NCBI GenBank assembly: GCA_024404495.1
Contig: JAKSPT010000008.1
Span: 1 to 64,000 of the forward strand
DNA length: 64,000 nucleotides
Direction: 5' to 3'
Source of the DNA: Lachnospiraceae bacterium
GTDB lineage: Bacteria; Bacillota; Clostridia; Oscillospirales; CAG-272
A model generated the notes under the pieces. That model was not told the origin of the DNA. It ran no database searches and was given only the letters and a program-made list of their open reading frames with translations. A program made the position numbers and the translations under genes. Position 1 is the stretch's first letter, and the number at the start of each line of letters is the position of its first letter. This document shows, piece after piece, positions 3,198-33,435 of this stretch.

Positions 3198-4148
3198 ATG
3201 AAAACAGCAATATTGGGTACCTGGCACGTTCATGCCGGCGGTTATGCCGGAACCGCGGCGGAACTCGGAACTCTGACCGGCGTTTGGGAAGAAAACGAGG
3301 CTTGGTGCCGGGAGTTCGCCGAAAGATTCGGCATCCGGCAGTATGCAAGCCGGGAAGAGCTTCTGGCAGACGATATTGACGGCGTCATCATCTGCTCCGC
3401 GACGAACCGTCATAAGGAAGACGTCATCGCGGCGGCGAGGGCGGGAAAAGCGATCTTTATCGAAAAAGTGCTGGCGCTGACCGAGGCGGACTGTACGGAG
3501 ATCAGACAGGTGCTGAAAGAGACCGGGGTCCCGTTCGTGATTTCCTTCCCGTGGAAGTTCAACGGCGCGGTTCTGACGGTTCGCAGTCTCGTCGAGTCGG
3601 GAGACGTGGGGCGGGTCAACTATATCCGTTTCCGCAACGCGCACACCGGCTCCTCCGGGGACTGGCTCCCGCCGCATTTCTATAACGCGGCTCAATGCGG
3701 CGGCGGGGCGATGATCGACCTCGGCGCGCACGGAATGTATCTGATCGATATGCTCAAGGGGCTTCCGGAAAGCTATTCCTCCGCGTTCGGGCTGTTCTGC
3801 GGCAAGCCCTCCGTGCTCGAAAAGAACGTCGACCGCGTCGAGGATAACGCCGTGACCGCTATGACCTATGCAGACGGCTGCGTTGCGGTCAATGAAACGG
3901 GGTTCAATACCTCCGGCTGCCCCACGATCCTTGAGGTCGGCGGCGAAGAAGGCTATATCACGATGACCGGCGATACCGTCGTTCATAACAGTCCCGCAAC
4001 GGAACATAAGACCGTACCTGCCGCGCTGCTGCCCGGGCAGCCCGCGCCGATCGTTCAGTTTATGAACGGAAAGGTGCCGGAAGGCTGCGGCATCGAAGAG
4101 GCGATTCGCCTGACGGTTATGATGGAGGGCGCTTACCGACGCCGATAA
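3198..4148 (+). CDS. Gfo/Idh/MocA-family oxidoreductase
   Basis: 316 aa. The N-terminal Rossmann half begins with a nucleotide-binding loop (LGTWHVHAGGYAG) and contains an IEKVLALT segment in place of the usual EKP motif. The C-terminal half follows the family fold (GGGAMIDLGAHGMYLIDML, with the conserved D and H). Members are NAD(P)-dependent dehydrogenases of sugars or inositols; the substrate is unknown. The ATG has AGAAAGGA upstream. The replaced Pro in EKP is a small oddity. Confidence 0.88.
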   Translation: MKTAILGTWHVHAGGYAGTAAELGTLTGVWEENEAWCREFAERFGIRQYASREELLADDIDGVIICSATNRHKEDVIAAARAGKAIFIEKVLALTEADCTEIRQVLKETGVPFVISFPWKFNGAVLTVRSLVESGDVGRVNYIRFRNAHTGSSGDWLPPHFYNAAQCGGGAMIDLGAHGMYLIDMLKGLPESYSSAFGLFCGKPSVLEKNVDRVEDNAVTAMTYADGCVAVNETGFNTSGCPTILEVGGEEGYITMTGDTVVHNSPATEHKTVPAALLPGQPAPIVQFMNGKVPEGCGIEEAIRLTVMMEGAYRRR

Positions 4149-4171
4149 AGAAACGGAAAAGGGCTCCCCGA

Positions 4172-4380
4172 CGCGGAGTGTTCTGAAGGACACTCCGCGA
4201 ACGATGTGTTCCACTGCGTGGAACATGATGTGCCTGACGGCGTGATGTTCGGCTTCGCCGAGTGATGTGCGCCTCGACGGCGCGTGAGTGGAACACATCA
4301 CATCACTTTGCGGCAGCGCCGCAAAACATCACTATGCCGATAGGCATAACATCACTTGCCCGACAGGGCAAACATCACTT
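4172..4380. repeat. Array of eight small hairpins separated by GTGATGT / ACATCAC spacers
   Basis: Eight short perfect or near-perfect stems follow one another: 4172-4199 (10-bp stem), 4207-4225, GCC/GGC near 4232, TCGGC/GCCGA near 4249, GCGCC/GGCGC near 4270, TTGCGGC/GCCGCAA near 4308, ATGCC/GGCAT near 4334, and TTGCCC/GGGCAA near 4357. Spacers in the first half read GTGATGT, those in the second half ACATCAC, so the array is also a dyad on the large scale. No coding frame is convincing here. It fills most of the 495-bp gap between 4148 and 4644. Confidence 0.8.
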
Positions 4381-4427
4381 TTTTCGGAAATTATATAATT
4401 TCCCTGCTTGATACCGCATGAGACGAA

Positions 4428-4480
4428 AATATACCTGCCGATCGAGATTTTTCTCTTTTCGGCAGGTATATTCTTTATTA
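4428..4480 (+). terminator. Intrinsic terminator-like hairpin
   Basis: AATATACCTGCCGA (4428-4441) pairs perfectly with TCGGCAGGTATATT (4459-4472), followed by a T-rich stretch. A palindrome GGAAATTATATAATTTCC lies just upstream. It isolates the acyltransferase gene from upstream transcription. Confidence 0.6.
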
Positions 4481-4559
4481 ACCTTAATACTGTCCTTTAG
4501 AGTACCGCTCTGAAGGAGTCCTTTTCTTTCTTTTCGGGATCCCTTTCGGAAAATCGCTC

Positions 4560-33136: not shown

Positions 33137-33435
33137 CTTGATATGCGTTGAAGCGAGAGGTTGCCCGAAAAAACGGCTCATGCAACGGGTTTTCGGGGGA
33201 ATTTTCGCGGAGTATGTCCGAGCTGCGGGCAGGGGACGACCCTGTTCAGCAGAAAAACCGGGCGACAGGAGTTCATGGACTTGTCGGGGATCCCGGACTT
33301 TGTCATCTTTTTGAAATCACCTGAAATTTCAAAAAGGTCACAAAATTCCGGATTTCTTTTCGGAAGGGTGATGAAACACCCGGAAGAGTGTTCAGGATTC
33401 CGCCCCATTTAAGTGTATTAAAGGAGGCAAAACAA
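33137..33435 (+). promoter_or_regulatory. Structured 5' leader of the S10 operon
   Basis: About 300 nt without a convincing gene. Near the 5' end GTTGC (33160-33164) can pair with GCAAC (33182-33186), while the adjoining CCGAAAA (33165-33171) can pair with TTTTCGG (33190-33196), an arrangement that crosses and so could be a pseudoknot or a switch. Further on, 33290-33317 and 33326-33353 form a long imperfect stem of about 25 bp. GGGTG/CACCC near 33366-33380 makes a small hairpin. The rpsJ ribosome site AAGGAGG is at 33421-33427. S10 operons are autoregulated by L4 in enterobacteria; the regulator here is unknown. Confidence 0.6.

Follow-up and report, generated by a model that had tools for sequence, protein, structure and literature searches.

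Several described systems resemble parts of the locus reported here. Integrons carry small accessory genes as stacked cassettes and have a structured attC site, in which the shape of the stem is kept rather than the sequence. The Avd proteins of diversity-generating retroelements (DGR) are four-helix-bundle relatives of the PF05635 proteins discussed below. PF05635 itself is named in a DGR paper. The intervening sequence (IVS) of 23S rRNA is an inverted-repeat structure at a stable-RNA gene, which is linked to a gene of the PF05635 family and for which mobility has been proposed (PMC4990558). Finally, a paper of 2010 (PMC2864571) introduced Gut-1 as a noncoding RNA with human gut sequence as its only known source. 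In the literature searched for Gut-1 and PF05635 in connection with such arrays, the yield was limited to this paper and the IVS and DGR papers, and no description was found of an inverted Gut-1 pair, of a position upstream of PF05635 or of siting after the CCA of a tRNA.

The window, i.e. the whole stretch of 64,000 nucleotides that was analysed, contains an array of small hairpins, which a preliminary description had pointed out. It overlooked that the halves of the array match Gut-1 and that there is a larger unit, which includes a PF05635 gene and is located after tRNA genes. Half of the array motif is already known as Gut-1, an orphan motif listed as an RNA without an assigned function. 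To the reading that we prefer we assign a probability of roughly 0.5: the array would be the upstream module of a small mobile unit, present here as a solo copy that is not autonomous, and its folded DNA a site that serves the mobility of this unit.

Architecture and fold of the array

Eight hairpins (hp0 to hp7) were located at 4172-4378 of the window, seven of them set apart by 7-nt spacers whose orientation switches in the middle of the array, from GTGATGT on the left to ACATCAC on the right (Table 1). All hairpins and the flip of the spacer had been claimed before and were recovered; the spacer common to them, which had also been claimed, applies to hp1 to hp7, but there is no full spacer between hp0 and hp1, and s1 is a variant. 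With 13 occurrences in the window, a number reached by no shuffle, ACATCAC is more frequent than the 3.07 expected, and this approximately 4-fold excess is mostly due to the array.

Table 1. Positions of the array, of its parts and of adjoining features in the window
Feature	Position	Strand	Remarks
Putative host terminator, 5' arm	4156..4167	+	GAAAAGGGCTCC; inverted repeat I15 with 4515-4526, 11/12 complementary
hp0	4170..4199	+	left-end hairpin (4172-4199), GACGCGGAGTGTTCTGAAGGACACTCCGCG; travels with the element, being unchanged in other contexts (C64, C21)
s0	4203..4207	+	left spacer GATGT, truncated
hp1	4208..4224	+	alternative, mutually exclusive pairing of its 5' arm X (with s0) to 4288-4299
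Left half, Gut-1 RNA-like	4223..4295	+	29.7 bits (gathering score 50)
s1	4225..4231	+	left spacer, ATGATGT
hp2	4232..4241	+	
s2	4242..4248	+	left spacer, GTGATGT
hp3	4249..4261	+	
s3	4262..4268	+	left spacer, GTGATGT
hp4	4269..4283	+	
Closing arm X' and s'a	4288..4299	+	GTGGAACACATC, complement of 4203-4214
Right half, Gut-1 RNA-like	4295..4380	-	35.5 bits (gathering score 50), E 1.2e-5
s'1	4300..4306	+	right spacer, ACATCAC
hp5	4307..4325	+	
s'2	4326..4332	+	right spacer, ACATCAC
hp6	4333..4348	+	
s'3	4349..4355	+	right spacer, ACATCAC
hp7	4356..4371	+	
s'4	4372..4378	+	right spacer, ACATCAC
Right part of element	4379..4493	+	hairpin 4428-4472; 95.8% identical in C64 to the end of that contig, 75% in C10
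Putative host terminator, 3' arm	4515..4526	+	GGAGTCCTTTTC; inverted repeat I15

A stretch of approximately 180 bases folds into a fishbone of small hairpins. The z score amounted to -9.6 for the plus strand folded as RNA and to about -10.2 for each strand folded as DNA. The preferred fold is a ladder, in which the left spacers pair with the right spacers and the hairpins protrude on both sides; the large branched dyad suggested in the preliminary description corresponds to this best fold, in RNA as well as in DNA folding. The left loops C(TTC)G, C(TTGC)G and C(TGC)G are the reverse complements of the right loops C(GAA)G, C(GCAA)G and C(GCA)G, so that the two halves look like inverted copies of one design, and across genera the loops belong to the classes C(TNC)G on the left and C(GNA)G or C(GNNA)G on the right. 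Furthermore, 4203-4215 and 4287-4299 form a perfect pair of 13 bp, the pairs of the dyad being real as well, and GATGTGTTCCAC at 4203-4214, i.e. the spacer and the 5' arm of hp1, is complementary to both the 3' arm of hp1 and the closing arm. In many arrays (e.g. L054, L055 and L126, alignment A1), hp5 and hp6 carry tandem G.A/A.G mismatches in the middle of stems that are otherwise perfect, for example TGCGACC..GGGAGCA and TATGAGC..GCGAATA.

Both halves align over the full 77-position Rfam model RF01706 (positions 1-77), which has a three-hairpin consensus, and both fall below its gathering score of 50. Relatives exceed this score, namely L158 with 65.9, both halves of L165 with 63.7 and 54.2, and L129 with 52.5. 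The sole above-threshold Rfam match in the window is an S10-Clostridia ribosomal protein leader at 33139-33239. Apart from the full-length alignment of each half, the likeness to Gut-1 consists of three hairpins with xTGAxxT spacers. However, the Gut-1 model, which stems from human gut samples, describes a single noncoding RNA without gene context, whereas the array consists of two inverted copies that form one dyad, varies in spacers and stems, and is linked to PF05635 and to tRNA ends.

As the preliminary description had stated, the array differs from ordinary terminators, CRISPR arrays and standard MITEs. An intrinsic terminator is a G+C-rich hairpin followed by a T run, but hp1 to hp7 are followed by spacers, and terminator-like character is limited to hp0 in relatives. 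CRISPR arrays consist of identical direct repeats and unique spacers of constant length, whereas here the repeats reverse their orientation and hairpins lie between them. Short, dispersed, gene-free, intergenic copies are also typical of MITEs, BIME/REP and other palindromic repeats; however, copies of the fishbone array have a fixed architecture but unrelated stems, and no terminal inverted repeats with target-site duplications, as in MITEs, were found. Nor is the array located inside an rRNA gene like the 23S IVS, since the window copy lies between protein genes and its relatives after tRNA or tmRNA genes.

The window's own genome (G000; 2.7 Mb in 77 contigs, with the window as contig C76) contains at least 15 array copies. 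BLAST within this genome detected copies on C64 (99% identical), C18 (83%), C45 (79%) and C34 (71%) as well as shorter pieces on C14, C21, C35, C71, C77, C11 and C8, and arrays with other spacers were found on C27 (two), C23, C11 and C10 when 2.29 Mb of the genome were scanned. The copies on C23 and C27 are also distinguished by their tRNA and tmRNA neighbours. Several copies are situated at contig ends, as is expected where repeats break the assembly. The array had been described as 209 bp long; it is present, but the repeated element is longer. The two 99% identical copies on C76 and C64, which occur in different contexts, agree in hp0, in the array and in a right part that contains another hairpin, as far as the end of the C64 contig, which places the element at 4170 to at least 4493. 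Its right end may lie at about 4500-4512. In unrelated loci (C7, C27 and C71 of the same genome; L119, L181, L186 and L191) hp0 has a common inner core similar to TTTGTCTACCGGACAAA, while the outer stems differ.

The window copy is flanked by genes for a Gfo/Idh/MocA oxidoreductase and an acyltransferase, without a PF05635 gene nearby, and is best seen as a solo derivative. GAAAAGGGCTCC begins 8 nt past the stop of the gene at 3198-4148 and, together with GGAGTCCTTTTC, probably represents the arms of the terminator of this host gene, which would have been split by the insertion of the element. Elsewhere in the window, the ORF at 272-1291 contains a HEVTH motif (LLHEVTHCLCH) which is reminiscent of metallopeptidases of the ImmA/IrrE type.

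A family of arrays linked to tRNA genes and to PF05635 genes

A pattern scan of GTDB yielded, among the matches listed, numerous rumen and gut genomes of Oscillospiraceae and Clostridia, and also unrelated tandem repeats. A descriptor composed of word, hairpin and word, followed by reverse complement, hairpin and reverse complement, gave 77 matches in 1.01 Mb of fetched loci, some of which overlap, and none in first-order shuffles. It must be mentioned that a looser descriptor was noisy in coding DNA, and that a strict form also matched 5 of 50 shuffled windows and six places in the shuffled genome. Hence, our conclusions rest on curated arrays and not on raw counts. Spacers of the variants GTGATGT, ATGATGT, GTGAAGT, ATGATAT, GTGAAAT, GTGATAT and GCGATAT were found, always with a complementary right side, which is circular evidence if taken alone, because the descriptor itself demands complementarity; the loci L346, L356 and L359 were reached via the PF05635 gene and not via the descriptor. 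Architecture and hairpin number are constant across many genera. Carriage by phages or plasmids was considered and rejected, with one weak phage match and no plasmid match being found; the bare pattern matches 25 viral contigs, but the descriptor retained just two of these, and the words in both were different ones. In Saprospiraceae (L056:1768-2774, L067, L102), several arrays of ACATCAC-spaced hairpins with one-sided orientation are situated away from PF05635, for which shared ancestry and convergence are both possible.

In relatives, the unit has the order hp0, array, promoter-like TTTACA..TATAAT sequence and PF05635 gene, often followed by a second promoter-like sequence and a cargo gene. 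Among the cargo are SdpI, GNAT, histidine phosphatase, MazG and small proteins of no assigned family; a recombinase or nuclease is not encoded in the unit. The array precedes a PF05635/TIGR02436 gene by 0-80 bp in about 18 of roughly 50 loci, usually with TTTACA-17-TATAAT in between, and also in G000, where such a gene lies directly downstream of an array on C27. This gene encodes the 23S rRNA intervening-sequence protein, a four-helix bundle whose closest solved chain is 2rld and for which we know of no catalytic activity. In the reverse direction, we selected the 30 top-scoring PF05635 genes solely by protein score; upstream of about 12 of them, an array was present at a distance of up to about 350 bp. 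The regions upstream of 56 PF05635 genes showed a median folding z of -3.3 compared to -0.5 for 60 controls (p 2.6e-9). PF05635 is present in 94 of 197 sampled genomes of the order, with up to nine copies each. Many arrays, the window copy included, are without the gene, solo arrays are common and some PF05635 genes are without an array, hence the pairing of both is not obligatory.

In place of an array, some PF05635 genes are preceded by a related dyad with few hairpins, for example (TTCACTA)n/(TAGTGAA)n. At the second PF05635 gene of G000 (C34; L166:1890-2040), a TTCACTA/TAGTGAA dyad without hairpins lies between terminator-like stems, and in L357, L363 and L370 (approximately 1280-1480 in the orientation of the gene) PF05635 units directly adjoin the CCA and have an upstream pyrimidine/purine inverted repeat that has no hairpin branches. 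In L181:854-1429, three tandem array copies of 202 bp precede the PF05635 gene, and the terminator tail is repeated between them.

Of all tRNA and tmRNA genes in the fetched loci, 35 of 108 have an array within 120 nt downstream, comprising 12 tRNA types and tmRNA, and hp0, a near-perfect terminator-like palindrome, fills the space from the CCA to the array. In G000, 5 of the 22 tRNA and tmRNA genes found are occupied by units. We compared six species that belong to a single genus within the family of the window. At one tRNA-Ser gene, in G197, the CCA is followed by hp0, an array with GTGAAAT spacers and the gene (unit A). In G200, the CCA is followed by unit B, which has a different hp0, an array with GTGATGC, a PF05635 pseudogene and a MazG-like cargo, and then by an array orthologous to that of unit A. 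G199 carries a third kind of unit without a fishbone at this site; such units, 92-95% identical, begin in G199 precisely behind the CCA of both tRNA-Arg and tRNA-Ser, and in G144 precisely behind that of tRNA-Leu. Given these differences between sister species and the near-identical units at different tRNAs, the units appear to move between tRNA identities, and hp0 belongs to the unit. This comparison provides the strongest evidence for targeting.

Units are also stacked, as after tRNA-Cys of L148 and L158, where two units with different spacers and cargo follow each other. L177 contains two copies of hp0, array and promoter, one with a gene of the SdpI family and the other with a PF05635 gene. 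In L129 and L177, the promoter abuts sequence that elsewhere follows the PF05635 stop codon, hence the gene is cleanly missing.

A comparison of flanks revealed no target duplication above control for single fishbone units; direct repeats occur only in tandem or stacked units, and tandem copies repeat the terminator tail. Neither an excised unit nor a circular form was encountered. Other small elements of 150-330 bp are found at tRNA 3' ends (L053, L119, L172, L180, L358 and L362, and inside L129 and L148); they have flanking duplications of 19-26 nt, in most cases of about 20-21 nt, which extend from the T loop to the CCA, and contain the T arm of the tRNA once more in inverted orientation. 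Fishbone units may be located within such elements or next to them. The duplications of 20-21 nt at tRNA 3' ends were considered as target duplications of the fishbone units and rejected, as they belong to these other elements. A reverse transcriptase acting in trans was rejected as a general mechanism as well, since PF00078 is present in only two of the eight genomes examined and absent from G000 and five of the seven others, i.e. from most of the element-rich genomes.

Covariation, wobble pairs and alternative explanations

The preliminary description had named missing further copies and stems that do not covary as findings that would speak against it. Copies were found in the host genome and in relatives, and both stems and spacers covary, changing together among the relatives from gut Clostridia. 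In 44 arrays (alignment A1), 93.6% of the cells in spacer helices were paired, with a covariation score of 0.305 compared to 0.144 in shuffled data, and at most 62% were paired when the helices were slid out of register, although the register of individual spacers is not resolvable because the spacers within one array are all alike. For the hairpins, 78.3% were paired, a fraction lowered by misalignment of hp2 and hp5, and the score was 0.484 compared to 0.153 in shuffled data. The alternative helix of s0 and X with the closing arm was paired to 97.8%, with both sides changed at 11 of 12 pairs, and hp1, which uses the same X arm, to 94.1%. The 5' arm of hp1 thus covaries with two mutually exclusive partners, i.e. 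it shows three-way covariation.

Stems that fold as RNA and are under selection normally drift through G.U pairs. The hairpin stems contain 6 G.U (G.T) among about 1067 pairs (0.6%), a count that depends on the stem delimitation chosen, compared to 91 in 1116 pairs (8.2%) in the acceptor and T stems of tRNAs at the same loci (p 1e-20, with non-independent pairs). Such stems, nearly free of G.U, indicate a constraint at the DNA level or a replication that restores palindromes, and their near absence of G.U favours the former. Selection on structure, which had been suggested previously, is likely, but the wobble count points to DNA, with homogenisation by template switching as a less probable cause. 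Helix B is an exception with 11 G.T and 1 A.C, a bias that would fit one strand folding as RNA or as DNA. Assigning the folding strand by G.T versus A.C was abandoned, as the hairpin wobbles are too few to decide.

We regard it as unlikely that the array acts at the RNA level, either as a noncoding RNA (a single or double Gut-1) or as a 5' leader regulating the PF05635 gene, with its stems under selection as RNA. The cataloguing of Gut-1 as noncoding RNA, the relatives above its gathering score and the covarying stems and spacers would be consistent with this, as would L137 and L160, in which the array ends 10-20 nt ahead of the ribosome-binding site of the gene. However, most loci place the array between an intrinsic terminator and a promoter-like sequence, hence neither flanking transcript should include it, and the low fraction of G.U is unlike that in tRNAs. 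Moreover, both halves match one RNA model on opposite strands, so that a single transcript cannot carry both in the modelled sense.

Even more doubtful appears an origin of the hairpins as a by-product of replication, in which template switching at imperfect palindromes perfects the stems of a passive repeat whose fold is functionless. The almost perfect Watson-Crick stems with few wobbles, the tandem copies in L181 and the common solo arrays would fit such a process. But copying of arms should homogenise spacers and hairpins alike, whereas within an array the spacers are alike or complementary and the neighbouring hairpins dissimilar; furthermore, architecture, hairpin number and loop classes are constant over many genera, and the associations with PF05635 and tRNA genes are left unexplained. 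That the array acts as a strong transcription insulator or back-up terminator behind tRNA operons and other genes is highly improbable: hp0 is an intrinsic terminator in most loci with the array directly next to it, but the other hairpins are without a directly adjoining T run, the unit is missing or replaced at the same tRNA in sister species, and array-free terminators are common in the same genome.

Proposed role of the folded site

Our preferred reading is a folded DNA site that serves the mobility of the unit. The single-stranded array would fold into a fishbone, in which the spacers form the central stem and two hairpins extend from each four-way junction. This folded DNA may be the recognition site for excision and insertion of the unit, similar to integron attC sites. 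The four-helix-bundle protein, which belongs to a basic, ring-forming family, could bind the fold and act together with a strand-transfer enzyme of the host or of a phage, and the pairing of the 5' arm of hp1 with the closing arm, which competes with hp1, could switch the site between two folds. Mobility via a folded single-stranded site aided by this protein is what we infer for the units; the window copy would have lost its gene or never had one and would sit within the terminator of a protein gene. More tentatively, and with somewhat less than even confidence, we suggest a so far undescribed class of small mobile gene cassettes. Fishbone DNA and the four-helix-bundle IVP protein would together place units immediately behind the CCA of any tRNA or tmRNA gene, where they would stack with cargo genes, and the unit itself would carry no conventional transposase or integrase.

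Such units would have counterparts among the systems introduced above. With the 23S rRNA IVS they have in common the protein family and an inverted-repeat structure at a stable-RNA gene, but the IVS lies inside 23S rRNA, carries its gene in the loop of one long stem and is cut by RNase III, whereas the fishbone units follow the CCA of tRNA genes and have the gene downstream of a branched dyad. Like integron cassettes, they stack small accessory genes and have a site that conserves structure; in contrast to these, they have their own promoters, sites of seven or eight hairpins and any tRNA 3' end as anchor, and neither an integron integrase nor, in the aligned arrays, an attC core was noticed. 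From DGR they differ by the lack of reverse transcriptase in most of the genomes mentioned.

Both the Gut-1 RNA and the free-standing 23S rRNA IVP proteins have long been orphans, and the findings supply a genomic context for them. The findings also provide concrete objects for testing, namely 44 aligned natural variants, insertions that differ between sister species and a protein small enough to be purified. If the mobility reading is true, dominant gut bacteria would possess a cassette system whose units target any tRNA 3' end in a new way.
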